64,000 nt of DNA, from the NCBI GenBank assembly GCA_947502595.1, contig CANNAM010000004.1, forward strand, positions 124,001-188,000, read 5' to 3'. This DNA comes from an uncultured Marinicella sp. Lineage in GTDB: Bacteria; Pseudomonadota; Gammaproteobacteria; Xanthomonadales; Marinicellaceae. The notes under the pieces are model-generated. The model was not told the DNA's origin. It did no database searches and saw only the letters and a program-made list of their open reading frames with translations. Positions within the stretch are counted from its first letter, which is position 1. Every line of letters starts with the position of its first letter. Position numbers and translations under genes: made by a program. This document shows, piece after piece, positions 43,144 through 61,013 of the stretch.

Positions 43144-43145
43144 AT

Positions 43146-43613: not shown

Positions 43614-44059
43614 TGCAACAACCGGTCCTGCTATCGCGCCATAAAAGCCAAGGTTTCACGTTGATTGAGGTGATTGCCTCATTCACCATATTGGCCATGA
43701 CTTTTATGGTGATTTTGGAAATACTGTCTAACTCCAGTACCAACACCATCAAGTCATCTGAGCGAACTAAAATTTCCTTGTTGGCACAAAGTAAGATGGA
43801 TGAGGTTGGGTTGTTGATTCCTGTGGAAGAGGGTTCTCAATCAGGCAGTTTTGATGATGAGGTTAATTGGGATCTGGTAATACAATCTTTTGATGTGGCT
43901 TATGAAGGCAATGTGGTTATGGATTTCGCACCAGTTGAGTTATATAAGGTGGTATTGACACTGACCTGGCAAGACGGTCATGACAAAACCCGTTCTGTGG
44001 ACTTCACCACCCTCAAAGCCATGACACCAGACTTTGAATCACAGGGTTTGGGTCGATGA
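43613..44059 (+). CDS. gspI: Minor pseudopilin GspI
   Basis: A 148-residue prepilin-like protein with KSQGFTLIEVIASF. The typical GspI phrase LLAQSKMDEVGL follows the helix. It forms the tip complex with GspJ and GspK. Start and upstream stop overlap as TGATG. Confidence 0.92.
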   Translation: MQQPVLLSRHKSQGFTLIEVIASFTILAMTFMVILEILSNSSTNTIKSSERTKISLLAQSKMDEVGLLIPVEEGSQSGSFDDEVNWDLVIQSFDVAYEGNVVMDFAPVELYKVVLTLTWQDGHDKTRSVDFTTLKAMTPDFESQGLGR

Positions 44060-44757
44060 AGCGTACTCAAGGCTTTACCCTGATAGAAGTCATAGTGGTG
44101 TTTACTTTACTGGCCATGATTATGGCCATGATTTTCTCAGGTATTGATTCAGGCCGACGTACAGCAGAAAAAGGTGAACAACGGATCACTGCAATCAATG
44201 AAATGCGGGTTATTCAAGGCATCATACGCCACCAAGTTTCTCGCGCCATGGGTTTGGGTGTGGTTGAATCTGATGAAGGTGAAATGTTGAAATTTATTGG
44301 CGATGAAAATGCCATTACTTTTGTGGCCCCTATGCCTGGTTACCTTGGTACCGGCGGTCCGCACATTCAAAAGTTAGAACTGGTTAATGCCGATGGCGGT
44401 AAAATACTGCAATACACGCACGGATTAATCAGTAATTATGATGATGAAAACGAACAATCTGCTTTTGATGATGCTGAACCCATTGTGTTATTGGAAAACA
44501 TCAGGGATGGGGTGTTCAGATTTGTTGAGTTGGATGAGGAGGGTTTGCCAACCGACTGGCTCAATGAATTAGAAAACCCAGTGGCCATGCCATTGATGGT
44601 ACAACTGGATTTAACCATGATGCCGACTGCCAAAGAGCAGTGGCCTTTATTCCAAGTGGCCATCCAATTGGACGGCAGTGGTACTTCAGCCAGACGCAGG
44701 ACCAGTGCCATCAATCTGTTGCAACAACGTAACAGTAACAGGGGCAGTGAACAGTGA
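44056..44757 (+). CDS. gspJ: Minor pseudopilin GspJ
   Basis: A 233-residue pseudopilin with TQGFTLIEVIVVF at the N-terminus and the larger beta-rich C-terminal domain typical of GspJ. It starts four bases before the gspI stop and is part of the I-J-K tip complex. Confidence 0.92.
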   Translation: MKRTQGFTLIEVIVVFTLLAMIMAMIFSGIDSGRRTAEKGEQRITAINEMRVIQGIIRHQVSRAMGLGVVESDEGEMLKFIGDENAITFVAPMPGYLGTGGPHIQKLELVNADGGKILQYTHGLISNYDDENEQSAFDDAEPIVLLENIRDGVFRFVELDEEGLPTDWLNELENPVAMPLMVQLDLTMMPTAKEQWPLFQVAIQLDGSGTSARRRTSAINLLQQRNSNRGSEQ

Positions 44758-45671
44758 GGTCACATTTGCAATCAGTCCCAATCAGCTCAAGGGTGAAACA
44801 GCAGGGCATCGCTTTGGTGTTGGTGCTGTGGGTGGCTTTGTTGATGAGTGTGATTGCCGGTAGTTTTGCTTTGTCAGCACGCACCGAGAGTTTACAATCT
44901 CGTATTTTGTTCAATGAAACCAAGGCCAGGTTTTTGGCCGAAGCAGGATTGAATCGTGCCGTATTTGAGTTGCGAAACCCTGACCCAGAAACTCGGTGGA
45001 TTGCTGATGGTAGGCCGTATAAGTTTGAATTAGACGACGCAGAAATTGAAATCAAAATTATTGACGAGTCAGGTAAAATTGATTTGAATCAAGCATCCGA
45101 GGAACTTTTGATTGGATTGTTTGCCTCATTGGGCGTTGATTATGATGAAGCGATTGGCATCGTTGATAAAATTTTAGATTGGAAAGATGCAGATGAAGAG
45201 GTACGACTTGCCGGTGCAGAAGATGCTGACTATTTTGCTGCTGGTTATCAGTATGGCGCCAAAGACGCACCGTTTGATACAGTTCCAGAGTTGATTCAAG
45301 TGATGGGTGTCAGTTATGAAATGTACCGTAAAATTGAACCAGCACTGACGGTATACTCTGGCCGAAAAGCCATTAATCTGGCCTTTGCACCGAAAGAGGT
45401 TTTGCTGGCAATTAATGGTGTGACGGCTGAGGCAGCTGATATGTTTATTGAAGAACGAACTGCCATTGAAGATGTGAATGCGGTACTGCCTTTGTTGGCT
45501 GAAGGATACTCAGGTCAGTTACGCGGAGGTGGGACCACTTTCAGCATCATCAGCAAAGCAACTTTGCCTAATAAGCAATTTGCAACAATAGATGCCACCA
45601 TCAGAATGGGTGGCAATTTACAAGGGCGGCCTTTTAGGGTGGTGCGCTGGAGAGACAACGAACACAAATGA
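44754..45671 (+). CDS. gspK: Minor pseudopilin GspK
   Basis: A 305-residue protein starting at GTG, overlapping the gspJ stop. The cleavage region KQQGIALVLVLWV lacks the Glu+5 found in other pseudopilins, the usual feature of GspK that places it at the tip. The helix-hairpin-helix region with SGKIDLNQAS and APKEVLLAINGV is typical of the T2SSK family. Confidence 0.94.
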   Translation: MRSHLQSVPISSRVKQQGIALVLVLWVALLMSVIAGSFALSARTESLQSRILFNETKARFLAEAGLNRAVFELRNPDPETRWIADGRPYKFELDDAEIEIKIIDESGKIDLNQASEELLIGLFASLGVDYDEAIGIVDKILDWKDADEEVRLAGAEDADYFAAGYQYGAKDAPFDTVPELIQVMGVSYEMYRKIEPALTVYSGRKAINLAFAPKEVLLAINGVTAEAADMFIEERTAIEDVNAVLPLLAEGYSGQLRGGGTTFSIISKATLPNKQFATIDATIRMGGNLQGRPFRVVRWRDNEHK

Positions 45672-46813
45672 CTACATACATTGAAAAAATAACTGAACCA
45701 TTGTCGCAGTGGTACCAAGGGTCTGGTGTCCATGCCTTTATGGCTTGGTGGATCGGTGAGTTAAAAGGTATCGTGCCAAGCGCTTATCAGAAAACTATAT
45801 TTCCAGAGTCATTGTCAGTTTACGTGACCGGCATAGAGTCCGGTGATGATGCGGTGCAAATATGGCAACAACATGCAGCATCATGGGAACAACTGACTTT
45901 TGATGATTCAGTTCAAGGCAAAGAGTGGTGGCACCAGCTGAATCATTATTTAGGCTCATCTGATGTTGACACAAAAGTAACTTGTTTGCTGGATGAATCT
46001 AATGTATTGATTCGCAGCGTGGCAATGCCTGTTGTGGTTTATAACGACATAGATTCGGTGCTCTCATTCGAGCTAGATAAATACATCCCTTTCAAAGCAG
46101 ATGAAGTGGAATATGCTTATACCAAAGGTGAGGTTGTTGAGGGCAGTGAAAAATTTCCGGTGATGTTGACGACCATTAAGAAGCAGCAATTGAATCGTTT
46201 GATTGATCAGTTTGAGGCCAAAGGTTTACAGCTGTCTGGTATTGATGTGAATGTGGGCAGTCAGGAGTTGCCAGCGAAATTAGGGGTTAATTTACTGCCT
46301 AAAGAGGTTCGCAAGAAAAAAGATTGGACTAAAATCAAATGGAATGTAGGCCTGGCTGCTGTTGCATTGTTATTGGTTTGGTTTGTCATGTACACTTCAT
46401 TAGACAACAAAAGGATTAAAATTGAGTCATTGGAAAACCAAGTTGCAGAATTGAAAAAAGATGCACGACGGGCCAAGTTGATTGAGACAGAGTTGAATGA
46501 ATCAATCCAGGCGGCTAATTTTCTGGGTAATTTAAAAAACCAAACCCCCAGTCGACTATTGATGTTCAAAGAGTTGACACAAAAAATACCTATGAACACG
46601 TATTTAACCAGAATCATGATTGACCAAGAGCGCATTGAAGTGGTCGGCCAATCTGATAATGCCAATGCATTGGTGCCGATACTCAATCAATCGGTCATCT
46701 GGCATGAGCCCCAGGTAATTGGTAATGTAACAATCGACCCAAGAACCAGCAAAGAAAAATTCACCATCAGGTCTGCTTTCAAATTACCCGGCGAGGTGAA
46801 CAATGAATCTTGA
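45668..46813 (+). CDS. gspL: Type II secretion protein GspL
   Basis: The 381-residue protein has an N-terminal actin-like cytoplasmic domain (KYIPFKADEVEYAY), one membrane helix (about 225-242, VGLAAVALLLVWFVMYT) and a periplasmic ferredoxin-like PilN-type domain. It links GspE to the platform through GspM. The overlap with gspK (ATGA) and gspM shows tight coupling. Confidence 0.9.
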   Translation: MTTYIEKITEPLSQWYQGSGVHAFMAWWIGELKGIVPSAYQKTIFPESLSVYVTGIESGDDAVQIWQQHAASWEQLTFDDSVQGKEWWHQLNHYLGSSDVDTKVTCLLDESNVLIRSVAMPVVVYNDIDSVLSFELDKYIPFKADEVEYAYTKGEVVEGSEKFPVMLTTIKKQQLNRLIDQFEAKGLQLSGIDVNVGSQELPAKLGVNLLPKEVRKKKDWTKIKWNVGLAAVALLLVWFVMYTSLDNKRIKIESLENQVAELKKDARRAKLIETELNESIQAANFLGNLKNQTPSRLLMFKELTQKIPMNTYLTRIMIDQERIEVVGQSDNANALVPILNQSVIWHEPQVIGNVTIDPRTSKEKFTIRSAFKLPGEVNNES

Positions 46814-47417
46814 TCCTCGACTGAGTAAATGGTCTGCTATTTTTGTGTTGTTATTGGTGCTGATGACTGTCTATTTTTTATTTTTCCACTGGTTTGTGGT
46901 GGCGCATGCAGAGTTGAATGCAGACGTTCAGGAATTAAATGAGTCACGTCAACAATTCATTAATGAGGCAGCCAAGACCCCAGAGTTGAGTCAGTTGTTG
47001 CAGCAGGTCAAAGCCCAAGTGGGTTCAAACGATGAGTTTTTACAAGCGGACTCAAAAAATCTGGGCAATGCAGAGATCACTTCAATTTTCAAAAATATAG
47101 TGAACCAGCAGGCTGCAGACAATGCTGAGTGTCAAATCATCAGCCAATCACCCACTCAAGATCGTGAGCCTGAGCAATTTGAAAAAATAACTTTGCGTGT
47201 TAGAATGCGCTGCCAATATGAAATCTTTGTAAAAATATTGGGTTTGCTAGAGGAAAACACCCCATCTTTATTCGTCAATGATTTGCGGGTTGAAACCAGG
47301 AATGTGAATCGCTATCGAAAAAATTCCAATCAAGCCAATGCACCAGAAAATTTAGAAATCAGGTTTGACTTGTTCGCTTATTTAAAAAACCCAGTTGAAA
47401 AACCAGATGAAAAATAA
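46803..47417 (+). CDS. gspM: Type II secretion protein GspM
   Basis: A 204-residue bitopic protein with one N-terminal membrane helix (FVLLLVLMTVYFLFFHWFV), a coiled region and a small periplasmic domain. Size and position match GspM, which dimerises with GspL and feeds energy and subunits to the pseudopilus. Its start lies 11 bp inside gspL, and its end overlaps gspN. Confidence 0.88.
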   Translation: MNLDPRLSKWSAIFVLLLVLMTVYFLFFHWFVVAHAELNADVQELNESRQQFINEAAKTPELSQLLQQVKAQVGSNDEFLQADSKNLGNAEITSIFKNIVNQQAADNAECQIISQSPTQDREPEQFEKITLRVRMRCQYEIFVKILGLLEENTPSLFVNDLRVETRNVNRYRKNSNQANAPENLEIRFDLFAYLKNPVEKPDEK

Positions 47418-48111
47418 TTTTTTTGCTAATGCGCTGTTGGTGCTGATAGGTGTTTTGCTGCTGCTGGCAGCGCTGCAGATGTTTGGCTGGGGGCAGGGAA
47501 CGTCCTCGTTAGAAGCAGATCCGTTTGATGAAACCTCATTGAATCAACTGGACTTGGGTGAAAATGCCCAGAACAACATCAAGATTGATGATGAGGTTAT
47601 GGTGAAAATCACCGATGCCCCATTGTTCAGTTATGATCGAATGCCTTATATCCCTACGGAAGAAACGGATCTGACCCTTGCTGGTGAAGATGAAGTAGTT
47701 GAGCCTGATCCACTGAAAGCCAAGGTAACCAGTATCATCATCACTGATGAAAACAGCTATGCCATGGTGTTTGACCAAGTCAGTAACACCAGCGTCACCT
47801 TGAAACAGGGCATGCCATTGCCGGGTGACCAAGGTTTGTGGACGGTGGATAACATCAATCCCAGAGCCGTTACATTTGTGGCTGAAGGTGAAGAGCCGGT
47901 TGAGCTGGGTTTGGAAGTTTTTGATGGCCAACTGAATGCCAAAGCACCTAACAGCAGAAAGAACAACAGAAACCAACGCAACAATAACAATAAAAATAAC
48001 AACAATCAAAACAACACCGCTCAAAAGAACAGTGCCGAGGAAATCAGAAAGAAAATTGCTGAACGTCGTGCACAAATGCGAGCCAATGCTGCCAAAGGAA
48101 AGAAAGAATGA
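47407..48111 (+). CDS. gspN: Type II secretion protein GspN (XpsN type)
   Basis: I take the ATG at 47407 rather than the tracked TTG; it gives 234 residues and overlaps the gspM stop. One N-terminal membrane helix is followed by a periplasmic domain with ITDAPLFSYDRMPYIP and by an Asn/Lys-rich low-complexity stretch near residues 180-205, then a basic helix. Position between M and D and the absence of gspC match xps operons of Xanthomonas, where XpsN links the L-M pair to the secretin. The Asn-rich linker is unusual and probably flexible. Confidence 0.82.
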   Translation: MKNNFFANALLVLIGVLLLLAALQMFGWGQGTSSLEADPFDETSLNQLDLGENAQNNIKIDDEVMVKITDAPLFSYDRMPYIPTEETDLTLAGEDEVVEPDPLKAKVTSIIITDENSYAMVFDQVSNTSVTLKQGMPLPGDQGLWTVDNINPRAVTFVAEGEEPVELGLEVFDGQLNAKAPNSRKNNRNQRNNNNKNNNNQNNTAQKNSAEEIRKKIAERRAQMRANAAKGKKE

Positions 48112-50264
48112 TAAAACAATTTAAAAATATAGGGTCGGTCAGTGTGCTGATGTTTTTGTTATCCGGCTGTGCTGTGACGCAAAAGGACTTGAGTGGTGAA
48201 CTTGATAACTCCGATTATTTAAAAAATATGGAATCCACCACTTACTCTGGCGAGGTTTTCAACGATGGCAGTGTGGATCAGAAGCAACATGAAGTGGCTG
48301 AGTACTACCCTGGTACTGGTGAATTCATTAACTTCGATGCGGCATCTAAAGTCAAACCAAGTGTGAGCTCACAGGGTGAGGTAACATTCAATTTTGAAGG
48401 TGAGTCTTTACAGGCCGTGGTCCATTTGATTTTGGGTGAAATTCTGAAAGAGAATTACGTGATATCTCCTGGCGTGAGTGGCAAAGTAACTTTCGCAACT
48501 GCTAAGCCGGTTTCCAAGAGTCAAGTTATCCCAATCCTGGAAATGATGCTGAGTTGGAACAAGGCTGCTTTGGTGATGGTTGATGACCGCTACCATGTGT
48601 TGCCAGAAGGTCAAGCCATCAAGGGCATGTTGACCCCAAAATTGAAACAAGGCAGTCAAGCCAATGGTTATCAAGTTTTGGCTGTACCACTGACATATGT
48701 TTCGCCAACTGAGATGGAGAAAATTTTAGCGCCGTATGCAAAAGATGGTGCAGTGGTTAAGGCCGACAATGCCAGAAACATATTGTTTTTGTCTGGTAAT
48801 AACAGTGAGCTGAGTAACTACCTTGAAACCATTGAGATATTCGATGTGGATTGGTTGGCTGGTATGTCTACCGGTATCTTTTATCTGAAGCAAGTGGAAT
48901 CGACTGATATATTGGTTGAGTTGGAAGCTTTGTTTGGTGAAGGTGCTGATAACCCATTGGCTGGTATGTTCAGATTTTTGCCTTTAGAGCGACTCAACGC
49001 CATCATGGTGATTACCCCTCAAGAAGATTATTTACATCAGGCCAAACAGTGGATAGATCGATTGGACAGAGCAGATTCAGATGGTGCGTCTAATTTATAT
49101 GTCTACAGCGTGAAAAACATCAAGGCCGATGACTTGGCCAATTATTTAAATGATGTGTTTGGTGGCAGCAGTGGTTCAAGTTCGTCGAGAAAGGCCAGCG
49201 GTGGTACTGTGGTGCCAGGTCAAGCAGGCAAAGAGGTCAGTTCATCAGGTGCCAGTAACACCAACACCTCCAGAAGAAAAACTACCAGCAGTTCCGGCTC
49301 AGGTATCAATGACATATTTATATCTGCCATTGAAGACTCAAATCAGTTGTTAATCAAAGCTGGTGTGGTGGATTATGAAAAAATCCTGTCAGCCATCCAG
49401 CGTTTAGACATAGAGCCATTACAGGTGTTGGTTGAGTTGAAAATCATTGAAGTTACTTTAGATGACAGCATTTCTTTTGGTATGGATTTGTTGTTTGGTG
49501 ATGGTGCGCCGAACATCATCGGCCCTGACGACGGTGGTTCATCATCGGTTGGTCCAACTTCGAAGAGTGTACCCTATAATTTTGGTACCACAGGCGCCCG
49601 GATCAACGGCAGCGGTGTTGCATATCGGTTCCTTGGCACCGATGCCAGTGCCAAATTAAGTGCGCTAGAAGAGGAGGGTCGTGTGGCCCTGTTGTCCAGT
49701 CCTTCTATGTTGGTGTTAAACAATAAGAATGCCACCATCAATGTGGGTGACCAAATTCCAATCACCAATGTGGGTTCAATTGGCAGTAACAACAACAGCA
49801 CCATATCCAGCACCCGCTTTATCCAAACCGGTGTACAGGTAGACATCACACCAAGGGTCAACCCAGGTGGGTTGGTGTACATGGAAATCAGTCAAGACGT
49901 CAGTGCGCCAGGAAAACCAAGCAGCGAAGGTGGTACACCACCAATATCAACCCGTGCGCTGAACACCGAAATTGCCGTGCAAAGTGGTAACACCATAGTT
50001 ATGGGTGGCTTGATCAGTGAAACCGACACATTTTCAAGATCAGGTTTTCCACTGTTAAGCCGAATTCCAGTGATTGGTAATGCCTTTGGGTCCAGAAGTA
50101 AGGTGGCAAAACGCACTGAGTTGATGTTGTTGATTACCCCAACAGTGATTGAAAACCCAGCGCAGGCCAGACAGGTCACTAAAGAGTATGCTAAGAAATT
50201 CCGTGGGCTTAAACCCATGAAAATTAATGTAGAAACAAAAGAAGACGAAATGGAGAATGAGTAA
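48108..50264 (+). CDS. gspD: Type II secretin GspD (lipoprotein form)
   Basis: The 718-residue outer-membrane secretin begins with a lipobox, LLSGC (Cys21), as in XpsD. N0-N3 domains follow; a Ser/Thr/Gly-rich insert lies in N3 (about 350-400). The secretin core has VALLSSPSMLVLNNKNATINVG and the terminal gate region TEIAVQSGNTIVMGGLI. It forms the exit channel. Being itself a lipoprotein it may need no separate GspS pilotin. Overlaps gspN by four bases. Confidence 0.96.
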   Translation: MIKQFKNIGSVSVLMFLLSGCAVTQKDLSGELDNSDYLKNMESTTYSGEVFNDGSVDQKQHEVAEYYPGTGEFINFDAASKVKPSVSSQGEVTFNFEGESLQAVVHLILGEILKENYVISPGVSGKVTFATAKPVSKSQVIPILEMMLSWNKAALVMVDDRYHVLPEGQAIKGMLTPKLKQGSQANGYQVLAVPLTYVSPTEMEKILAPYAKDGAVVKADNARNILFLSGNNSELSNYLETIEIFDVDWLAGMSTGIFYLKQVESTDILVELEALFGEGADNPLAGMFRFLPLERLNAIMVITPQEDYLHQAKQWIDRLDRADSDGASNLYVYSVKNIKADDLANYLNDVFGGSSGSSSSRKASGGTVVPGQAGKEVSSSGASNTNTSRRKTTSSSGSGINDIFISAIEDSNQLLIKAGVVDYEKILSAIQRLDIEPLQVLVELKIIEVTLDDSISFGMDLLFGDGAPNIIGPDDGGSSSVGPTSKSVPYNFGTTGARINGSGVAYRFLGTDASAKLSALEEEGRVALLSSPSMLVLNNKNATINVGDQIPITNVGSIGSNNNSTISSTRFIQTGVQVDITPRVNPGGLVYMEISQDVSAPGKPSSEGGTPPISTRALNTEIAVQSGNTIVMGGLISETDTFSRSGFPLLSRIPVIGNAFGSRSKVAKRTELMLLITPTVIENPAQARQVTKEYAKKFRGLKPMKINVETKEDEMENE

Positions 50265-50680: not shown

Positions 50681-50711
50681 GGCTGGTTGTAGGTGGTTGT
50701 GATATTTAAAA

Positions 50712-50755
50712 AAAACAGTCTGCCAAGTTTTAAACTGATGCCAAATGACTGTTTT
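50712..50755 (+). terminator. Possible terminator of the gsp operon
   Basis: AAAACAGTC (50712-50720) pairs with GACTGTTTT (50747-50755). The 26-nt loop is long and only a short T-run is built into the stem, so the strength is uncertain. It starts 32 bp after the lipoprotein stop. Confidence 0.45.
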
Positions 50756-50822
50756 ATATAACATGGGGAATTACAGAAAAAGCAGATTTTATTGTACGGA
50801 ATGATTGACTTTCAATACATTG

Positions 50823-50847
50823 GTCAATTGCTCTATTAGTCAATTGC
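50823..50847. repeat. Direct repeat GTCAATTGC, two copies
   Basis: GTCAATTGC occurs at 50823-50831 and 50839-50847, 16 bp apart. Each copy contains the palindrome CAATTG. It lies about 60 bp before the candidate -35 of the next gene, a place where an activator could bind. Confidence 0.45.
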
Positions 50848-50910
50848 ACTGGCTGTTTTTGATTGTCAGTGATTAAGAAATAAATAGAAAATATGCTTGT
50901 TTTTGAATTT

Positions 50911-50940
50911 TTGATGATATATCATTGCAACTGCTATCTT
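50911..50940 (+). promoter_or_regulatory. Candidate promoter of the secreted protein gene at 51014
   Basis: TTGATG (50911-50916), an 18-nt spacer and an extended -10 TGCTATCTT (50932-50940). This would give a 5' UTR of about 65 nt. The match is partial. Confidence 0.35.
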
Positions 50941-51013
50941 GTATAGCTTCGTTCATATGAGCGGGGATATTTTATAGCCCTGATATTAAATTATAATTTT
51001 TTTGGAGTTAGAA

Positions 51014-52453
51014 ATGAAAAAAAATAAACTAACTATGTCTATTGCCGCTGGTGTTGCTGGTGTTGCTGGATTAGCAAGTGTTGCTAATGCAGTGCATATC
51101 AACCCAGAAGGTACTGGTCAAGTATTGATTTATCCGTATTACTCGGTTCACAACACTTTACAAACGACTTACTCGATTGTAAATACTACAGCTGATTCAA
51201 AAGCTGTTAAAATCAGATTCTTGGAAGGCGAGAACTCTTTAGAGGTACTCGATTTCAACATCTACATGTCTGCATATGACGTATGGGCTGGTGTTTTAGG
51301 TAACACTGATACAGGTCCTGCACACGGTAGAAGTGACACAACATGTGCACCTTTCATCGATGCAGTTACACCTTTACGTCCGTTCTTGATTGAACAATTG
51401 GACGGTGTTGCTAGAGAAGTTGCTTTAGAGCGTGCTTTAGACGGTCACTTTGAAGTATTAGAAATGGGTACTTTGAATCCTGCTGACGCTGCTTTAGTTG
51501 ATCACGGCACAAACGGCGTTCCAGCTGACTGTCAAACTATTGCTGATCGTTGGACCAGCAGTGGTGCATGGACAACTGGTTCAATCGACCCACAATTAGA
51601 CGCTCCTACTGGCGGTTTATTCGGTGGCGCTACTATTTTAGAGCCTAGCCAAGGTGCTGCTATGAGTTACAATGCTGTTGCATTAGATGACTTCTGGGGT
51701 CCTTCTTTATTAGCTATTCATACTGATCCAGGTAGTTTATCTCCTAGCTTAGTTGATGCTGACGCTACAAGTAACAGATTCCAAGGCGCTGCTTATGACG
51801 CTTCTGGTGTTTATGTTGGTGGTGGTAACACGCTGACTTCAACATGGTTACGTGGTATTGATGCTGTTTCTGCTTTGTTCATGTCTGACAGAGTAATGAA
51901 CGAGTACGTTTATGACGAAGGTCGTAATGCCAAAACTGAGTGGGTTGTTACTTTCCCAACTAAAAACTTTTATGTAAATGGTGGCGTTACAGCTCCGTTC
52001 AGCACTCAATGGAGTCCTGCGACTAAAGCTTGTGAAGGTTACAACATGACTGTTTGGGATCGTGAAGAGTTGCCTGGTAGTGATGAGTCTTGTTACGACA
52101 TCTCTCCACAAGACCCTAACGCGCCTGGTTGTGCTCCAGTTATCTGTTATGAAGCCAACGTTGTTGAGTTCTTAAGACCTGGTGTTTCTTCTACTGGTTC
52201 TTCAGCTCTGTTAGGTTCACAAAACTTGGTTTCAGTTAGTGGTCCTTCTACAGCTGCTACTCCAAGTGGTTGGGCTCGTATGGGCTTCAACGGTATTAAC
52301 ATGCAATTAGTAAGTGATACTGGTGCTTCTTACAGAGGTTTACCTGTAACTGGTTTCATGGTACAACGTTACAGTAATGCAGCAGCAGCTGAAGGCTTAT
52401 TGGCTTCTTACGCAGCTACATTTACTCACAACACACGTATTAACTCTTTCTAA
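51014..52453 (+). CDS. Secreted/surface protein of unknown function, probably highly expressed
   Basis: From the ATG at 51014 (GGAG nine bases upstream; the tracked TTG is less likely) the product is 479 residues. A signal peptide ends at SVANA, and the mature protein starts VHINPEGTGQVLIYPYYS, then YSIVNTTADSKAVKIRFLEG. I recall this start in uncharacterised exported proteins of several gammaproteobacteria. It looks beta-rich with few charged residues and several cysteines. The gene is isolated, with its own leader and a strong terminator, and its codon use is even and biased to T/A-ending codons such as GCT and TTA, unlike its neighbours. I infer high expression. No sorting signal is seen at the C-terminus (NTRINSF). 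Confidence 0.8.
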   Translation: MKKNKLTMSIAAGVAGVAGLASVANAVHINPEGTGQVLIYPYYSVHNTLQTTYSIVNTTADSKAVKIRFLEGENSLEVLDFNIYMSAYDVWAGVLGNTDTGPAHGRSDTTCAPFIDAVTPLRPFLIEQLDGVAREVALERALDGHFEVLEMGTLNPADAALVDHGTNGVPADCQTIADRWTSSGAWTTGSIDPQLDAPTGGLFGGATILEPSQGAAMSYNAVALDDFWGPSLLAIHTDPGSLSPSLVDADATSNRFQGAAYDASGVYVGGGNTLTSTWLRGIDAVSALFMSDRVMNEYVYDEGRNAKTEWVVTFPTKNFYVNGGVTAPFSTQWSPATKACEGYNMTVWDREELPGSDESCYDISPQDPNAPGCAPVICYEANVVEFLRPGVSSTGSSALLGSQNLVSVSGPSTAATPSGWARMGFNGINMQLVSDTGASYRGLPVTGFMVQRYSNAAAAEGLLASYAATFTHNTRINSF

Positions 52454-52569: not shown

Positions 52570-53835
52570 ATGAAAATTAAAACTATACTATTGATTGGAT
52601 TATCTACTGTTGCTTATGCAGAGAATAAGGTAATCATCCAAAACTCAGAAGTCACTGGATGGAATGGCCAGCCAGATGTCGAAGTAAATTTGGATCCCAA
52701 TTCACCACCAATGATTTCAAACAGTGATGGTAATATTTATGTGGTACCAAATGAAATTTTCACGGTGAATCAAACTGAAATTAAGCCACCTGTTATTTCA
52801 ATGTTTATCACAGGAAATGGCACCAGTGTTGCCAATATTTCTGGCAGGGTATCAAATTCACCCACTTCTTGCCAGCGTGTCACTACCAACTGGACACCTA
52901 TTTTTTCAGGAACAGATTATATTTTTAATGAAACTGTTTCAATCCCAAACACAGAACTTAACTATACATTTTCTATGAGCTGTACAAACAGCTTAAACCA
53001 AACAGATAATGCCTCTGTTACATACTATGGAACCAGTTCGGGTTCGCAAACTGGAGGTGATGTTTCAATAACAAACTTCAATGTCCAGTACTTGTCTACC
53101 AACCAATACAGAGTCAGCTATACAGCCAATAATGCCACATCATGTAAAGGCTTAAGTAGTACCAACGATGGCTGGAGAAATAACACCAATAATCCTGCCA
53201 CAGTTAATATCACTTCATCTGCAAGTTGGGGACTGGAATGTGAAGGCCAAAATGGCCCAGTTTCAATCAATGCCAACTTTAACAGCACACAATATGATGT
53301 TACTTATCAAACCCAAGGTCCTGCCAATTGTGCAAGTGTACAAACACCACCAGGCTATACCCGGGAAAACTACGTATTCGGCAGTACAATATTTGATACC
53401 AGTTCTTCATTCCCTGCAAGTGCTGGAAAGCAAGCCTTGCTAAATGTTGTTTTAGGCACTTACGCTACCATTGAATTTACTTACAACCGATCATCTTACG
53501 ATCCTGAAGGTGATATTACATGGTCTTCTTTACAGCCATCATTAGAGCCAGATGTAGGTTTACCTGATAAAACCAGAATGACAGTAACCGAATGTCCTGG
53601 TGACTTGATGTTAAATAGTTCTACTGTAAATGCACATTGTGCAGCCAATATTTTTGATGGTACAGGCGATGTCAGAATGACTCATTTAACTGGCTTGTCA
53701 AGGTGTCAACTTGTTGAAGGACAAAAATATTACCTCAATATCATACAAACCCATGATCCAGGTAATGTCCAAGACAGTTGTGCTACTATTCGAGCAGGTG
53801 GTTGTGGGCCTTTATTAAGAACCAGACATAACTAA
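52570..53835 (+). CDS. Secreted protein with Cys-paired Ig-like repeats, unknown function
   Basis: I use the ATG at 52570, which gives a 421-residue protein with a clean signal peptide ending AYA; the track start adds 13 unlikely residues. The mature part is rich in Asn, Thr and Ser. Similar blocks recur with a cysteine after a short N/S/T/P stretch: SPTSCQRV (Cys101), NATSCKGL (Cys192) and GPANCASV (Cys254). The first two have a partner cysteine 32-37 residues on (MSCTN, LECEG), as in Ig-like domains. A C-terminal domain with six more cysteines follows. No family is recognised. First of eight tightly spaced genes. Confidence 0.75.
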   Translation: MKIKTILLIGLSTVAYAENKVIIQNSEVTGWNGQPDVEVNLDPNSPPMISNSDGNIYVVPNEIFTVNQTEIKPPVISMFITGNGTSVANISGRVSNSPTSCQRVTTNWTPIFSGTDYIFNETVSIPNTELNYTFSMSCTNSLNQTDNASVTYYGTSSGSQTGGDVSITNFNVQYLSTNQYRVSYTANNATSCKGLSSTNDGWRNNTNNPATVNITSSASWGLECEGQNGPVSINANFNSTQYDVTYQTQGPANCASVQTPPGYTRENYVFGSTIFDTSSSFPASAGKQALLNVVLGTYATIEFTYNRSSYDPEGDITWSSLQPSLEPDVGLPDKTRMTVTECPGDLMLNSSTVNAHCAANIFDGTGDVRMTHLTGLSRCQLVEGQKYYLNIIQTHDPGNVQDSCATIRAGGCGPLLRTRHN

Positions 53836-53838
53836 AAC

Positions 53839-54774
53839 ATGAATACATTACTATTTATTCTATTGACTGTAATAAGCGCCGAAGAGGCGCTTATTACATC
53901 TGGTGAGCATAATATTTCAATTACTGATATGCATGTTTCACTTTATGATTTAGAAACTGAGCAAAGAGAGAAAGCATTCAAAGATGTAAAATACCTTGAT
54001 GTTATACTTAGGAAGCTGTTGAACTACGAATATGCATATGACTATGTTTTGCAAGAAGGTTTAAACAAATCAGAAGATTTTGTGGAAGCAGAAAATCTGG
54101 TATCTGAGTTTGTAGCAACCATGGATTATCCTGATTACATCAAATTATTAGGCATGGATGAAAAACTATTTAAAGCAAGTTACTATGACCATCGAATTAG
54201 AAAAGAATACTTTTTCCTATTAGAGGAACATTTCAAGAAAACCTTAGATTATGCCGCAATTGATAAATACATTGAGGAAGTTTACAGCACGATAAAGCCC
54301 AGTCAAGATGATTTGAAAATTGTATACGCACAAGTTGTAGAGTTACCCAAAGACCATTACAGTCAAACACAAATCATTGATTCATTAAAAATTCAACTTA
54401 ATGATGATCAAGTTGATTTGCTGCTACCAAACTTGCAGCAAGGTGATACTGCTCTTAATAGCAATGAAGTTAAGTTAGCAAAAGACAGTAAATTCAATTT
54501 GCCTTTCACCAATGATATATACAACTATGAAAACAGTGGGGTTATACCTAAAATTTTTGAATTTGAGGGTAATTATTATGTTGCAAGAATCAACAAAATT
54601 GACACCTCGGGTTTAGAGCATTATTACCAATACAAGGAAAGGGTGCTATTTGATTTGGTTGATGAGCAAATAAAAAAGCGTATGCAAAATGTAATCAATA
54701 CCTATTCACAATCTGAAACAAAAGTGAATGGTGAGGCAATTGAAAAGCTGTTAGAAAGTTACGCAAACTTATGA
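53839..54774 (+). CDS. Exported SurA/PpiC-like protein (putative periplasmic foldase)
   Basis: A 311-residue protein with a signal peptide (MNTLLFILLTVISA). Its long helical N-terminal half and a C-terminal part with EGNYYVARINKIDTSG recall SurA/PpiC-type proteins, in which an N-terminal chaperone domain surrounds a parvulin domain. The parvulin domain is short and degenerate, so isomerase activity is doubtful. It lies 3 bp after the Ig-like protein gene and 7 bp before wzm. A role in folding or exporting the upstream protein is inference. Confidence 0.55.
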   Translation: MNTLLFILLTVISAEEALITSGEHNISITDMHVSLYDLETEQREKAFKDVKYLDVILRKLLNYEYAYDYVLQEGLNKSEDFVEAENLVSEFVATMDYPDYIKLLGMDEKLFKASYYDHRIRKEYFFLLEEHFKKTLDYAAIDKYIEEVYSTIKPSQDDLKIVYAQVVELPKDHYSQTQIIDSLKIQLNDDQVDLLLPNLQQGDTALNSNEVKLAKDSKFNLPFTNDIYNYENSGVIPKIFEFEGNYYVARINKIDTSGLEHYYQYKERVLFDLVDEQIKKRMQNVINTYSQSETKVNGEAIEKLLESYANL

Positions 54775-54781
54775 CCGCCTG

Positions 54782-55537
54782 ATGTTTGCTTTCTTTTTAA
54801 AGAAAGAGTTATCTGATCGGTATTTAGGTAACTCTTCGGCTTTAATCTGGGTTATTTTGCAGCCAGTAGCAACGTTATTGACCTACTATATGGTGTTTGG
54901 GTTAATATTTGATGCGAGAATTGAAGGTATACCTGAAAATGCCTTCATCACTTATTTGGCTATTGGTCTTTGGCCTTGGATGGCTTTTTCTGAATCAGTA
55001 CTCAGCTCAATTGATACCATAATATCTAGAAAAGATTTACTGGGCAAAGTGAAAATAGATTTGCGACAAATAGTAGTTTCAGGGACAACAGCTACTTTTA
55101 TCCTACATGGCATAGGTTATGTGGTGATATTACTGCTGTTGATTTTGTTTAATCGACTTGAAATCACTTATCATCTATTGCTGTTAATTTTACCACTGGT
55201 TATTTTATATGTAATGGCAGTTGCCCTGAGTTTGTTCCTATCAGCACTGCAAGTGTTTTACCGTGATGCCAAGCAGATCATAAGCTCAATTATGCCCTTG
55301 GTATTTTTCTGTACACCAATTATTTATTCATTTTCCTTGATACCAGAACGTATACAAAGCTATTTTTTAATTAATCCTTTGGTGCCAATTATAGAGTTCA
55401 TTCATCATGTTGCTTTTAATGTAAAAGCGATTGCTTGGACACAACTGTCGGTAATCTTTCTGGTTAGTTTGGCCCTGCTATATTTGTCAAATATGTTTTT
55501 TAACAAGTTAGCCCCACGGTTTGATGATTTTGTCTGA
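54782..55537 (+). CDS. wzm: Wzm-like ABC-2 permease for polysaccharide export
   Basis: A 251-residue ABC-2 permease with six membrane segments. The N-terminal FLKKELSDRYLGNSSALIW and the later VFYRDAKQIISSIMPLVFF are diagnostic for Wzm/RfbA/KpsM-type O-antigen and capsule exporters. It moves undecaprenyl-linked glycan across the inner membrane. It overlaps wzt by one base. Confidence 0.93.
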   Translation: MFAFFLKKELSDRYLGNSSALIWVILQPVATLLTYYMVFGLIFDARIEGIPENAFITYLAIGLWPWMAFSESVLSSIDTIISRKDLLGKVKIDLRQIVVSGTTATFILHGIGYVVILLLLILFNRLEITYHLLLLILPLVILYVMAVALSLFLSALQVFYRDAKQIISSIMPLVFFCTPIIYSFSLIPERIQSYFLINPLVPIIEFIHHVAFNVKAIAWTQLSVIFLVSLALLYLSNMFFNKLAPRFDDFV

Positions 55538-56700
55538 TGGCAATAATTGAAATATCAAATTTAAGCAAATACTATCCACATGTGGCTAATAACCGCCAAC
55601 GCGTCAGAGGCATGGTTGATATCCTGCTTAATCACAGCCGCGAGGGTGGAGCGCGGATTTTGCATGACCTTTCTTTTACCGTCAAAAAAGGTGAATCGCT
55701 GGCCATAGTTGGGCGCAATGGTGCAGGCAAAAGTACTTTACTAAAAATACTTTCTGGCGTGATTCAGCCCACTTCAGGCACGGTAAAGGTCCATGGCACC
55801 ATCGGTGCTTTACTAGAGCTTGGTTCAGGTTTTGATCCGGAATATACAGGCCTAGACAATTTAAAAATGTCTGCAGCACTCAATGGAATCAAAGGCAAGC
55901 AAGCAGCAATTAAAATTCAGCGCATGATTGAGTTTGCAGATATCGGTGAATACATACATGAGCCAGTAAAAACGTATTCCTCGGGCATGGTCGTGCGGTT
56001 AGGGTTTTCTGTTATTACTGAAACAAAACCAGATTTGTTGATTACCGACGAAGTTTTGGCTGTTGGTGATGAAAGTTTCCAACTCAAATGTTTAAAATGG
56101 ATTGATGAGTATTTACACAGTGGCGGCACCTTGCTATTGGTGTCGCACAGTATTTACCATGTTCAAAAAATCTGTCAAAAAGCCATTTGGATTGATGCAG
56201 GTGAAATAAAGTTATCAGGTAATTCTTTTGAGGTGTCTCAAGCTTATCAGCACGAAATGTTGAGCCAACTGCCAAAGATAACCAATGAGTCGAATGAACA
56301 GCCTTTACAAATTAAATCGATAGAGTTCAAAGCTGCAAGCGGCAAGCTCACTCAGACCTTCGATTTGCATGCTGATATACATATAAAGGTCACACAACAA
56401 GCGCCGAATGGTGAGGTGCCGGGTTTGTGTATGGGAATTGTTGGGTATGATAATCAAGCCATCTACGGCACATTTTCAGACATAGAGAAAATTGTACCAA
56501 AAGTAATTGGTGATCAGTTGTTTGAATACAATTTAACAATTAAATCCTCGCCTTTATTGCCAGGTAAGTACCACTTTAAATTTCACACCATGACTCCTGA
56601 CCAAATTCAAATGGTAGATACGGTAGCAAAAGAAATCACCATAGTAGGTCAAACCAGAGAATTGGGTGTATGCCACATTGATGTGGACTGGACTGATTAA
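55537..56700 (+). CDS. wzt: Wzt-like ABC ATPase with C-terminal glycan-binding domain
   Basis: A 387-residue protein. The ATPase part (about 1-240) has Walker A GRNGAGKST, signature YSSGMVVRLGFS and Walker B LLITDEVLAVGDE, the polysaccharide-exporter subtype. The extra 140 residues form a Wzt-type beta-sandwich that in O9a-like systems recognises the modified non-reducing end of the glycan. This implies that chains are capped before export. It ends directly at the next start codon. Confidence 0.93.
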   Translation: MAIIEISNLSKYYPHVANNRQRVRGMVDILLNHSREGGARILHDLSFTVKKGESLAIVGRNGAGKSTLLKILSGVIQPTSGTVKVHGTIGALLELGSGFDPEYTGLDNLKMSAALNGIKGKQAAIKIQRMIEFADIGEYIHEPVKTYSSGMVVRLGFSVITETKPDLLITDEVLAVGDESFQLKCLKWIDEYLHSGGTLLLVSHSIYHVQKICQKAIWIDAGEIKLSGNSFEVSQAYQHEMLSQLPKITNESNEQPLQIKSIEFKAASGKLTQTFDLHADIHIKVTQQAPNGEVPGLCMGIVGYDNQAIYGTFSDIEKIVPKVIGDQLFEYNLTIKSSPLLPGKYHFKFHTMTPDQIQMVDTVAKEITIVGQTRELGVCHIDVDWTD

Positions 56701-57501
56701 ATGTCAATTCAAATCGTGGTGCCCATCTATAACGCTTATGCTGCAGTTAAAGCTTGCTTAGCAGCCTTACAGCGATACAGTTATGCTGCTGATGTTTTGC
56801 TGATAAACGATGCCTCTACAGACGACCGTATCAGCACATTGCTTGAACAACAACCTAAGGCTTGGCAGATTATCCATAACCCAAAAAACTTAGGTTTTGT
56901 GCAAACAGCGAATAAAGGGCTTCAAGCACATGCTGGGCACAGTATTTTACTGAATTCGGACACCTTAGTAAGCGCACGGTGGTTGATGGGTTTCGAACAA
57001 GCAATCGAGAAAATACAGGATTTAGGTACAGCCACACCATGGTCCAACAATGCAGAAATATGTTCTTTACCCAACACTCTGGTTGCCAATGAAATACCTA
57101 AAAACATTGATGAGGTAGGTTTGCAGTTGTATAAGAACCACGTGCCAACTTGGCCTGAAATACCGACAGCTGTTGGCTTCTGTATGCTCATTACTGCCCA
57201 AGCAAAGCGGCATGTGGGCTATTTTGATGAAATTACTTTTGGCAAAGGTTACGGTGAAGAGAATGACTATTCGTTAAGAGTTGCTGACAATGGTTTGAAA
57301 AATATATTGATTGATAACAGCTATGTTGCACATGTAGGTAATCAGTCATTCAAAGAAATCATGCTCCAGCCGAATGCACAAACCATGCAACGATTACTGA
57401 CTAAGCACCCAGATTACCTTCAGCTCATTGAGAAATACATCAAAAGCAATCCTTTGTCTTCATTAAGACAATCAATCATTGCTAAAATAGATGCTTTTTA
57501 A
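56701..57501 (+). CDS. GT2 family glycosyltransferase
   Basis: A 266-residue GT-A enzyme. QIVVPIYNAYAAVKACL is the nucleotide-binding start, INDASTDD contains the first acidic motif and LLNSDTLV the second; CMLITAQAKRHVGYFDE resembles the acceptor-side region of rhamnosyltransferase-like GT2 enzymes. The sugar is unknown. No spacer separates it from wzt. It probably adds a residue to the exported glycan on the cytoplasmic side. Confidence 0.9.
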   Translation: MSIQIVVPIYNAYAAVKACLAALQRYSYAADVLLINDASTDDRISTLLEQQPKAWQIIHNPKNLGFVQTANKGLQAHAGHSILLNSDTLVSARWLMGFEQAIEKIQDLGTATPWSNNAEICSLPNTLVANEIPKNIDEVGLQLYKNHVPTWPEIPTAVGFCMLITAQAKRHVGYFDEITFGKGYGEENDYSLRVADNGLKNILIDNSYVAHVGNQSFKEIMLQPNAQTMQRLLTKHPDYLQLIEKYIKSNPLSSLRQSIIAKIDAF

Positions 57502-57513
57502 TCGACCAGCAAC

Positions 57514-58386
57514 ATGTCCGAAGAACAATTAACATTTACCGGTGAACGATTTCTGCCGGATTGCGAACGCGAGATTTGGTATGAGCACTTCCATCGATAT
57601 GCCATGATAACTTCAATAGTCTCAGGTAAAGTTGTGTTGGATGCGGCGTGTGGGGAAGGGTATGGCAGTGATTTATTGGCTCGGTATGCGGCTCAAGTTA
57701 CAGGCATCGATATTTCTGCAGAAGCAATTAAACATGCCAATACCACTTACCATAGAGCCAATTTAAGTTACCAGCAATCGGATGTGTTGAGTTCTGAGTT
57801 GCCAACCAACAGCTTTGATGTGGTGGTTTCATTTGAAACTTTAGAGCATTTGGCTGAGCATGAACAATTGCTGAAAAATTTTAAGCGGGTGCTGAAACCA
57901 GGTGGGTTGTTGGTTATATCCAGTCCGGATAAATCTGAGTACTCAGACAAGACTGGTTTTAATAACGAATACCACGTCAAGGAACTGTACCGACATGAAC
58001 TTGAAGAGCTGTTGCAAGCCCATTTTAAATACAGCAAGTGGTTCGGTCAAAAGTTAATGTTTAACTCAACCATTTGGGCGCTGGAACAACCGTTGAAGTC
58101 GTGCCAGTTTGATTGCATTGATGAACAAGGTCAGGTATTGAATCAACCGCCTTTCACCCCAATGTACTATGTGGTTATGGCTTCAGATGAGCCAATTAAT
58201 AATGACTTGTGTGTGGATTACTATACTTTTACAGAGCAGGCAGAAACTGTATACGGTCACTATAATGCAGTAATCAGAGCGCACATAGAATATGAAAATA
58301 AATACCATGAGCTGAAAAAAACTCATGAAAATTGGTTAAAGCACCCCGTCATAGGTCGCTTTATTAAATGGTTTAATAAGGATTGA
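57514..58386 (+). CDS. SAM-dependent methyltransferase
   Basis: A class I methyltransferase of 290 residues. Motif I is VVLDAACGEGYGSD, motif II includes FDVVVSFETLEHL and motif III is LKPGGLLVISSP. It resembles methyltransferases in O-antigen clusters, such as those that cap chains in Wzt-recognised systems (WbdD-like), though the kinase part of WbdD is absent. The C-terminal 40 residues form a charged helix (YENKYHELKKTHENW). A capping role is inference from the neighbours. Confidence 0.85.
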   Translation: MSEEQLTFTGERFLPDCEREIWYEHFHRYAMITSIVSGKVVLDAACGEGYGSDLLARYAAQVTGIDISAEAIKHANTTYHRANLSYQQSDVLSSELPTNSFDVVVSFETLEHLAEHEQLLKNFKRVLKPGGLLVISSPDKSEYSDKTGFNNEYHVKELYRHELEELLQAHFKYSKWFGQKLMFNSTIWALEQPLKSCQFDCIDEQGQVLNQPPFTPMYYVVMASDEPINNDLCVDYYTFTEQAETVYGHYNAVIRAHIEYENKYHELKKTHENWLKHPVIGRFIKWFNKD

Positions 58387-58388
58387 AC

Positions 58389-60185
58389 ATGGAATTTGAA
58401 TTTAATTTTGGTGAACACAATATACAAAAAGCCAAACCACACGACCCTAATTTGTATGCTTCCGTTGCTGGCACAGCATTACAGCTAGGTAAAGATGAAC
58501 TGGTTTTTTTAGATCGCAAGAACACCAATCACATCATGACCTTGCAGGTTTTGCAGGCGATGAGCTTAACGCAACAGTTCAAACCCATGGATGAGCATGT
58601 GGCGACCATCGCAGAAAATATACCAGAGTTAAGCGGCCAGCATGAAGCCATAGAAACAGTGTTGGGGTTTCTGAAATCTAAAGGTTTACTGGTCAGTGAT
58701 CAGCAATGGTTGACTGAGTTAAAAAATCAACAAAAAGTCAACGTCAATAAATATGCTGGCATGGTGGTGCGCACATGTAACCGCCCTGAACATTTACAGC
58801 GATTGATCCAATCGTTTGAAAATTACCAAGCTGAACACGGTACACAGGACATGGTATTGGTTTTTGATGATTCTAACGATGCGAAAATCGAAGAACAAAA
58901 TCAAAAAATCTGTCAATCTGCAAAAGTAAGTGTTAAATACCATGGCCGATCTTGGCAAAACCAATTCATTGGTATGTTGAAAGAAAATTTTCCAGAGCAC
59001 AGCAAACAAATAGATTGGTTGTTAAAAGCGCGACCAGGTTTTACAGGTGGTCGGGTATGGAACTTGGCTTTACTTGCATTGGTGGGTAAAAAGTTCAGCT
59101 TTTATGATGATGACTATTTAATCCAGCCAAGACGAACCATTGAAAGCAATGAAAAACAAATTAACTTGGCTGAAAATGCAGAGCTTGATGTCGGTTTTGG
59201 TCTAAACATCAGAGACATCAAATCCAAAAGCACATCCGTAGCTTCTGATTCACTGGGTGCGATGGTTGATGCGTGTGGTCAAAACTTTGGTCAGTGGCTG
59301 TTGAGTCAAATAGATATAGAAACCTCATCTTTGTATGGTTTGAGGTTAACTGATTTAGAACGATTTGCCTCAGATTCAGTCATAAAATCAACTGGCAATG
59401 GTACTTGGGGAAGTCCCAGGGCTGAAAGTAATTACTGGTTGTATTTACTCAAGGGTGAGCAACGTGAAGCCTTTTGGCAAGACCGTGAAACTTATTTAGA
59501 TAATATTGAAGCTTCACACTTGTTGCATTATTCGCCTAATTATCAAGCACTGGCGACTGCTAATTTTGCACCATCTACCATTGATTGCAGCAGCTTTACG
59601 CCATTTTCAATGCCAATCAATAAAAATGAGGACCATTTTTTTAATTGCATGATGACTGGGTGTTACCCCAATCAGGTGGCCTTGCATTTTCCAACCATGA
59701 TGGGACACATACAAACCAGTAAAAGAAACAGAAGTAATTTTAACCACATTGCCAGAAAGCCGAATTTCAATAACTTTGTAGGTGACTTTATTCTGTCCAA
59801 GGGACCATTGGTGGAAACCATAGATCCAGTCACAAGGTTTCAAAATTTAGCCGCAATATTAGAGGATTTACGGACGTGTAAGGATGAGGTTATCATTAAT
59901 AAACTCAAAGAATACATGACCAAAACCAGAAGTGATTTGGTGTTCTCTTTACAAAATATCCTGGATGAAGTGCCTGATGCGCCAATTTATTGGCAGGCCG
60001 ATATAAGAGAAATTATTCAAGCCAATGGTAAGGCTGTTAAGTCTTCTCAAGCGCCTGTTCTGACCGACTGGAATGAAGGCTTGGATATGGCTGCATGTGT
60101 TGAGCAGGCCCGAAATGATTTAAATGAAGTGGTGCAAGCGATGGAAGTGTGGCCTAAGTTGTGGGCATTTTGTCAGGGCCAGTAA
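58389..60185 (+). CDS. PqqD-like domain fused to a GT-A-like domain, unknown function
   Basis: I place the start at ATG 58389, with AAGGAT upstream, rather than the tracked TTG two codons before; this gives 598 residues. About residues 22-103 look like a PqqD-type winged helix: FLDRKNTNHIMTLQVLQAM, then EHVATIAENIPELSG and VLGFLKSKGLLVS. About 120-470 look like a GT-A glycosyltransferase: GMVVRTCNRPEHLQRL, LVFDDSND and a DDD triplet in FYDDDYLI. The C-terminal helices have no match I know. PqqD domains bind peptides in RiPP systems; here there is no radical SAM partner in view. It is predicted to be cytoplasmic. Confidence 0.6.
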   Translation: MEFEFNFGEHNIQKAKPHDPNLYASVAGTALQLGKDELVFLDRKNTNHIMTLQVLQAMSLTQQFKPMDEHVATIAENIPELSGQHEAIETVLGFLKSKGLLVSDQQWLTELKNQQKVNVNKYAGMVVRTCNRPEHLQRLIQSFENYQAEHGTQDMVLVFDDSNDAKIEEQNQKICQSAKVSVKYHGRSWQNQFIGMLKENFPEHSKQIDWLLKARPGFTGGRVWNLALLALVGKKFSFYDDDYLIQPRRTIESNEKQINLAENAELDVGFGLNIRDIKSKSTSVASDSLGAMVDACGQNFGQWLLSQIDIETSSLYGLRLTDLERFASDSVIKSTGNGTWGSPRAESNYWLYLLKGEQREAFWQDRETYLDNIEASHLLHYSPNYQALATANFAPSTIDCSSFTPFSMPINKNEDHFFNCMMTGCYPNQVALHFPTMMGHIQTSKRNRSNFNHIARKPNFNNFVGDFILSKGPLVETIDPVTRFQNLAAILEDLRTCKDEVIINKLKEYMTKTRSDLVFSLQNILDEVPDAPIYWQADIREIIQANGKAVKSSQAPVLTDWNEGLDMAACVEQARNDLNEVVQAMEVWPKLWAFCQGQ

Positions 60186-60188
60186 ATA

Positions 60189-61013
60189 ATGATTAAGCCA
60201 ACAGCTGAACTTGATGTAGTGGTGGTGAACTACAACTCAGGTTCAGCTTTGGCTCAGTGTATTCAAACCATTACCCAATTTGAAATGTTGAACCTCAATG
60301 TTGTTGTCATTGATAACCATTCTTCAGACCAATCAATGACTGCTTTAGAAGACATGATCAAGTCCAACGGATGGAATGTAAATACCTTGTATAACAACAG
60401 TAATTTAGGTTTTGCCAAAGCCTGTAATCAAGGAGCCAGTACAGGACAGACTGATTACATCGCTTTTATTAATCCTGATTGTTTCATCAATGGACAGCAG
60501 CTGCTGCATTTGAAACAACGCTTGTCCGAAAATACCCAAGCGGGATTAATTGGCTGCCGGGTGCTGAATCCAGACATGACACTACAGGCGGCAAGTAGAC
60601 GCCGATTACCCACTTTCTGGCGCATTGTGTTTCACCTCACTGGTCTCTCAAGGCTGCCATTTTTCACAGGAATACACATCAAAGACCAAGGTTTGTTTGA
60701 TTCTGTAGTTACAGTTGAAGCGGTCAATGGTGCATGTTTAATGGTTAAAAGAACCGCTTTTCAACAAGTTGGTGGCTACGATGAAAATTACCCTTTACAT
60801 TTTGAAGACCTGGACTTGTTTGCTACTTTACAGTGCAACAACAAGGCGGTGTTGTATGACTCAAGTGTGCAAGTGGTGCACCTGCACGGTCATTCTGATC
60901 AACAAGTCGCACAAGTGAAGGCCTGGAAGCGCCGGGGTTTGTTGTTGTTCATGCAAAAGCACCGCCCCAAGTGGGAATATAAAATCAGTCGTTTTTTTCT
61001 GGGTCTAAAATAA
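60189..61013 (+). CDS. GT2 family glycosyltransferase (rhamnosyltransferase-like)
   Basis: A 274-residue GT-A enzyme with VVVVNYNSGSALAQCI, IDNHSSDQS, FINPDCFI and EAVNGACLMVKRTAF, the usual run in WbbL/rhamnosyltransferase-like GT2 proteins. A hydrophobic helix near residue 150-160 may associate it with the membrane. It is last in the polysaccharide operon, 3 bp after the PqqD-like gene. Its 3' end overlaps the convergent rsmI by 29 bp. Confidence 0.9.
   Translation: MIKPTAELDVVVVNYNSGSALAQCIQTITQFEMLNLNVVVIDNHSSDQSMTALEDMIKSNGWNVNTLYNNSNLGFAKACNQGASTGQTDYIAFINPDCFINGQQLLHLKQRLSENTQAGLIGCRVLNPDMTLQAASRRRLPTFWRIVFHLTGLSRLPFFTGIHIKDQGLFDSVVTVEAVNGACLMVKRTAFQQVGGYDENYPLHFEDLDLFATLQCNNKAVLYDSSVQVVHLHGHSDQQVAQVKAWKRRGLLLFMQKHRPKWEYKISRFFLGLK

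Follow-up and report, generated by a model that had tools for sequence, protein, structure and literature searches.

We find that a gene in a 64,000-nucleotide stretch of Marinicella DNA (the window) encodes a fusion, here called RRE-GT, of a PqqD-like RRE with a GT-A glycosyltransferase domain. The fusion has intact glycosyltransferase motifs and shows conserved linkage to, and co-occurrence with, an NpdA-like S-layer protein, a T2SS and a Wzm/Wzt-glycosyltransferase-methyltransferase module. Our preferred reading, which we hold tentatively and at somewhat less than an even chance, is that RRE-GT is a soluble cytoplasmic enzyme of an NpdA-type S-layer locus, whose RRE grips a protein of the locus and whose GT-A domain adds a sugar to it. 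The grip on a peptide and the transfer of sugar to the bound protein are what we infer, and peptide or protein glycosylation by RRE-GT is plausible.

To judge from the sequence, the open reading frame 58389-60185 is a real gene, and full-length orthologues of about 600 residues, free of internal stops, occur in most relatives. The start is the ATG at 58389, which opens the conserved MEFEFNFG, and MEF at residue 1 is kept in the orthologues. The TTG at 58383 was rejected as an alternative start; it is a mechanical extension of the frame, and the orthologues fix the start at MEF. The whole protein gave no match above threshold in Pfam, NCBIfam or the PDB sequences, and therefore the domain assignment needed structure and profiles. 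The AF2 model, built on a 39-sequence alignment, has a mean pLDDT of 91.3 and a pTM of 0.89. Neither a signal peptide nor a membrane segment is predicted, so the protein is expected to act in the cytoplasm. Its features are as follows.

58389-60185, plus strand: RRE-GT, 598 aa, in which a PqqD-like RRE is followed by a GT-A domain and a C-terminal helical domain (orthologues, AF2).
58389-58412, plus strand: N-terminal MEFEFNFG motif, conserved and strand-like with alternating aromatics, unstructured in the AF2 model and followed by a variable linker.
58452-58697, plus strand: RRE, a PqqD-like winged-helix domain, residues 22-103 (AF2, Foldseek, hhalign to PqqD).
58746-59753, plus strand: GT-A domain, residues about 120-455 (Foldseek; GT2 and GNT-I matches of relatives).
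59106-59114, plus strand: D240-D241-D242, DxD-type metal/nucleotide-sugar motif (alignment).
59628-59633, plus strand: E414-D415, an xED motif that presumably supplies the catalytic base (by analogy with GT-A enzymes generally).
59706-59708, plus strand: H440, the conserved C-terminal His of GT-A enzymes (role inferred).
59766-60182, plus strand: C-terminal helical domain, residues about 460-598, with a conserved (A/D)P(I/V)YWQAD(V/I)RE (alignment, AF2).

The N-terminal motif takes other forms elsewhere in the family (LNYQINYG, LSYQFNYT, DFSFSVS), and the aromatic alternation is kept down to about 20% overall identity. The MEFEFNFG terminus might lie in the groove of an RRE, either its own (in cis) or another molecule's (in trans). 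No other protein in the genome begins with this motif within three mismatches.

The preliminary description of this DNA had read the first 100 residues or so as PqqD/RRE-like, and this reading was borne out. In the AF2 model, residues 1-110 (pLDDT 85-91) form a b-b-b-b-a-a-a winged helix, a sheet followed by three helices, with strands at residues 22-25, 29-32, 37-41 and 47-51 and helices at 52-59, 67-77 and 85-97. When the N-terminal domain was modeled alone (pLDDT 85), the same elements were obtained as in the full-length model. In a Foldseek search of the PDB with the isolated domain, the best 12 matches were all RRE-bearing RiPP proteins, comprising TbiB1 (with its leader peptide), TruD, cyanobactin heterocyclases, TigE, MibB and MadB, and PqqD itself (5sxy) ranked 17th. 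These 12 matches have probabilities of 0.82-1.00 and an E-value of 5e-3 at best, modest values such as an 80-residue domain leads one to expect. An hhalign comparison of the RRE profile with a PqqD profile, made from 26 PqqD-family sequences of other genomes, matched over the whole PqqD length (P = 4.1e-6, score 32.5); the best of 20 column-shuffled controls reached P 0.021 and a score of 12.1, and the reversed profile P 0.24. Of the profile searches proposed for residues 1-110, the profile-profile match to PqqD was thus obtained, but the threshold of PF05402 (PqqD) was missed: this family scored below threshold in this genome and is absent among the families matched by the 39 aligned members. 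Given the Foldseek and hhalign matches without a PF05402 match, we regard the N-terminal domain, by model and profile, as a divergent relative of PqqD/RRE domains that escapes PF05402. Where RREs have been characterised, they bind substrate peptides (PMC7470986).

The GT-A domain with its DDD motif, also proposed earlier, was confirmed at the level of fold. The Foldseek search with the whole model gave MtdL first (E 2e-5, probability 1.00), followed by TarP, TarS, RmlT and MGAT2, and the DDD motif (residues 240-242) lies within this fold. The two points on which the preliminary description had made itself dependent, a winged helix at the N-terminus and a DDD inside a GT-A fold, are therefore both found in the models. 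The search against glycosyltransferase families gave a divided result. The query itself matched none above the cut-off (best MGAT2, E 0.015, and TIGR04440, E 0.04), but among its relatives Glycos_transf_2 (PF00535) was matched by 15 of 39 (best 4e-5) and GNT-I by 10 of 39. With no curated family above the cut-off for the query, the GT-A assignment is one of fold and motifs, not of membership in a named family. The DxD, the xED and the C-terminal His are the usual landmarks of GT-A enzymes, and all three are found in 87 of 94 members, the window protein included. With DDD 240-242, E414-D415 and H440 intact, the window protein looks catalytically competent from its sequence.

The remaining seven members bear on the function of the RRE. 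Six of the 94 (L029, L031, L032, L033, L034 and L037) have lost at least two of the three glycosyltransferase motifs, with the RRE and the helical domain intact, and all six lie in the usual operon position; in a seventh (L062) the first motif is altered. F64 and H70, two residues of the RRE, do not vary in any of the 93 members with this domain. From these sequences, the RRE appears to be kept even where glycosyltransferase catalysis has probably been lost. This conservation argues against the view that the RRE no longer binds peptides and merely caps the GT-A domain structurally, which we consider improbable. A point in favor of such a cap is that the AF2 model places F64 and H70 in the a1-a2 region, and the usual peptide groove of RREs is at b3/a3.

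The weak class-wide matches at residues 100-230 (L124-L136) were examined as possible RRE-GT proteins and rejected, as they belong to another, uncharacterised GT-like family of about 600 residues without an RRE. This family, from Gammaproteobacteria, has the conserved motifs GKVVGDPPVSPAVMA and FIDSDQ and almost no Pfam coverage. In a class-level relative (G071, L218:4462-8325), the same glycosyltransferase and helical domains recur without the RRE; in its place they are joined to FkbH and a phosphopantetheine carrier domain, and a GT2 gene adjoins.

The genes around RRE-GT in the window form one block on the same strand.

39787-50264, plus strand: T2SS genes gspE-F-G-H-I-J-K-L-M-C/N-D (Pfam T2SSE, T2SSM_b, Secretin; remaining subunits assigned by gene order, pseudopilin N-termini and homology across loci).
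51014-52453, plus strand: NpdA-like S-layer protein of 479 aa, the first 26 or so forming a signal peptide (position after the gsp cluster, size, taxon list, strain match; no Pfam match).
52570-53835, plus strand: second secreted protein, 421 aa, of weak conservation; its C-terminus bears a cTYYLN-type motif across loci.
53839-54774, plus strand: candidate exported SurA/PPIase-like chaperone, 311 aa (sequence reading, conservation across loci; no Pfam match).
54782-55537, plus strand: Wzm-type ABC-2 permease (PF01061).
55537-56700, plus strand: Wzt-type ATPase with a Wzt_C-like C-terminus (PF00005; PF14524 below cut-off).
56701-57501, plus strand: GT2 glycosyltransferase a, GT2a (PF00535).
57514-58386, plus strand: SAM-dependent methyltransferase (PF08241).
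60189-61013, plus strand: GT2 glycosyltransferase b, GT2b (PF00535).

A lipoprotein-like gene lies between gspD and the NpdA-like gene. The order gspD, lipoprotein, NpdA, secreted protein, chaperone, Wzm, Wzt, (GT2a), methyltransferase, RRE-GT, GT2b is found in many genera of Lysobacterales, recurring in Marinicella, Dokdonella, Rudaea, Tahibacter, Pseudofulvimonas and others; GT2a is missing in some of them.

By strain, position, size and taxon match, the product of 51014-52453 is very probably the known S-layer protein NpdA. NpdA has been reported from Delftia and Paracidovorax and also, among further genera, from Rudaea, Dokdonella, Tahibacter and Chiayiivirga; its gene immediately follows a gsp cluster of 12 genes (PMC10765051). 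With its signal peptide of about 25 residues, its mass of about 50 kDa and its position after gspD and one lipoprotein-like gene, the 479-residue protein fits this description and the NpdA system of both papers (PMC10765051, PMC3110197), and the four last-named genera are common to that system and the present loci. Rudaea cellulosilytica DSM 22992 is among the strains which the study examined (PMC10765051); this strain is also one of our loci (L087), with the NpdA-like protein at the same position. Differences are that its main text describes only the upstream gsp genes, with the Wzm/Wzt-glycosyltransferase-methyltransferase-RRE-GT block unmentioned there, and that Marinicella was absent from the consulted portions of its taxon list (PMC10765051). 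Assembly of the NpdA S-layer is reported to depend on LPS (PMC3110197), which fits the linked Wzm/Wzt-glycosyltransferase-methyltransferase module.

The secreted protein upstream had been suggested as the substrate. This suggestion stands in so far as the protein exists, is conserved together with RRE-GT and can very probably be equated with NpdA, but no motif tracking with RRE-GT was found in it, and NpdA loci exist without the enzyme. No recognition motif present only together with RRE-GT was found in NpdA or its neighbors. The NpdA-like signal peptide, MK[KR]NxLTTAVxAGIAGVAG, equals the best block of the mature protein in conservation; in locus-linked copies, residues 1-20 show a mean identity of 74%, against 46% in the mature chain, and unlinked paralogues have unrelated signal peptides. 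We considered this segment as the RRE recognition sequence and rejected it: copies from genomes without RRE-GT keep 10-13 of the 20 consensus positions, versus 12-18 otherwise. Since the signal peptide is conserved with or without RRE-GT, it gives no evidence for leader recognition. A shared end motif of the two secreted neighbors was also rejected, because only the TYYLN-type motif of the second protein was found, and it is present without RRE-GT too. NpdA-like proteins number up to 11 per genome, and in other Marinicella genomes (L167, L168) paralogues form tandem arrays of four, whose members lack the conserved signal peptide.

Among 250 Lysobacterales genomes, RRE-GT and the NpdA-like protein occur together in 99, RRE-GT only in 14, the NpdA-like protein only in 33 and neither in 104 (Fisher 5e-25, uncorrected for phylogeny). 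The 14 genomes with RRE-GT only are mostly incomplete assemblies. Among the listed genomes of family f12, the two are present together or both absent; in families f8 and f9, RRE-GT lies away from the locus, yet persists in genomes that bear the NpdA-like protein. Outside the order the RRE-GT family is rare, with three clear cases in 274 genomes of the class and none in a 299-genome sample of the phylum. Of these, the first lies next to gspF and the second next to GT2b, the latter in a genome with gspD-NpdA; they belong to two other families of the class. The third is the FkbH-carrier fusion. Conversely, NpdA-Wzm-Wzt loci without detectable RRE-GT occur both inside and outside the order, and NpdA in these loci has a very similar N-terminus. 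Divergent unlinked copies of RRE-GT stand in unrelated contexts that reveal no substrate. Two divergent RRE-GT genes (L038, L039) immediately precede genes for a kinase and a nucleotidyltransferase similar to AmgK and MurU, which act in cell-wall recycling.

The unrelated contexts of the divergent copies could point to a small RiPP-like peptide, encoded elsewhere, as the substrate of RRE-GT, the linkage to the S-layer locus then being secondary. RRE domains occur mostly in RiPP pathways (PMC12710340). The strong linkage and co-occurrence with the NpdA-like protein speak against such a peptide. The operon, moreover, leaves no room for a small precursor gene: none was found, the genes from 52570 to 61013 are near-contiguous, and the sole sizeable gap is at 50681-51013. 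The linked small precursor gene that marks a RiPP cluster is thus absent from the RRE-GT locus, and we rate a RiPP-like substrate as very unlikely.

We return to the preferred reading, glycosylation of a protein of the locus. The RRE would hold a stretch of peptide within a protein that is produced by the locus or on its behalf, before that protein is exported; most simply this would be the S-layer preprotein or the partner secreted protein. The GT-A domain would add a sugar to the protein so held. The glycan may help the S-layer protein to bind the exported, methyl-capped O-polysaccharide, or may prime it. The fold and homology of the RRE, the fold and motifs of the GT-A domain, the conserved gene order and the co-occurrence even where RRE-GT is unlinked favor this reading, as do the gene neighborhoods of the two relatives from other families of the class, the reported LPS dependence of NpdA assembly (PMC3110197) and the peptide binding of characterised RREs (PMC7470986). 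Against it are the lack of an RRE-GT-specific recognition motif, the NpdA loci without the enzyme and the six members with a degenerate glycosyltransferase, as well as operon neighbors that belong to an O-polysaccharide pathway, which needs no protein acceptor, and the fact that no mention of NpdA glycosylation was found in the consulted papers on NpdA.

Docking of the RRE within the glycan-assembly machinery is almost as likely as protein glycosylation. RRE-GT might be an ordinary glycosyltransferase of a Wzm/Wzt O-polysaccharide pathway for the LPS that anchors the S-layer, with the RRE as a docking module that keeps the assembly complex together by binding a peptide of a pathway partner (the methyltransferase, Wzt or GT2b) and no protein being glycosylated; we consider this possible, though below an even chance. 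The gene's location in a Wzm-Wzt operon, flanked by the methyltransferase and GT2b, and the LPS dependence of NpdA assembly (PMC3110197) are consistent with it. Members with a degenerate glycosyltransferase keep the RRE and the helical domain in the same operon position, as a scaffold would, and in the FkbH-carrier fusion, which adjoins a GT2 gene, the same glycosyltransferase domain occurs without an RRE. However, the methyltransferase-GT2b pair is also found without RRE-GT, and unlinked copies off the glycan operon persist in NpdA-bearing genomes. We also know of no RRE with a docking role inside O-antigen assembly, which counts against docking. Glycosylation is favored over docking by what RREs generally do, by the unlinked copies and by how tightly RRE-GT co-occurs with the secreted protein.

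More specifically, glycosylation by RRE-GT could represent leader-directed glycosylation outside RiPPs, in which, during S-layer biogenesis in Lysobacterales, a RiPP-type RRE steers a cytoplasmic glycosyltransferase to the S-layer preprotein or the partner secreted protein before Sec/T2SS export. We consider this form of the proposal rather unlikely. HMW1C, the autotransporter heptosyltransferases and GtfA/B are cytoplasmic glycosyltransferases of exported surface proteins and offer a functional precedent if RRE-GT modifies the S-layer preprotein before export; none of them, to our knowledge, uses an RRE. Among solved folds and families, those nearest to the catalytic domain are MtdL (a GDP-fucose mutase of GT-A fold), TarP/TarS, GT2 and GNT-I; these share 10-13% identity with RRE-GT, catalyze other reactions, and have no RRE or equivalent C-terminal domain.

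The combination had been described as one without a known counterpart, which holds only in part. RRE-glycosyltransferase fusions were flagged by RRE-Finder in 2020 (PMC7470986) and in 2025 with PF00535 (PMC12710340), with no function assigned to them. Like RRE-GT, they unite an RRE and a glycosyltransferase in one protein with no known function. They came from a search for RiPPs, whereas RRE-GT sits in an S-layer/T2SS/ABC-glycan locus without a precursor peptide. RRE-GT also differs in a glycosyltransferase below Pfam thresholds and an extra helical domain; the two sets may overlap. What appears new, in that we did not find it in the open-licence literature, is the S-layer/T2SS/ABC-glycan setting, the order-wide conservation and the members with a degenerate glycosyltransferase.

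RREs count as a hallmark of RiPP biosynthesis, and genomes are mined for peptide natural products with their help. A large, conserved family of RRE-GT proteins at an S-layer/T2SS locus would place a peptide-recognition module in the construction of the cell envelope, and some RRE-Finder hits would then not be RiPP pathways. If RRE-GT directs the glycosylation of an exported protein, it would tie the question of how NpdA-type S-layers obtain or bind glycans to a defined, testable enzyme. The assembly of the S-layer, a protein coat, may thus involve peptide-guided sugar attachment.
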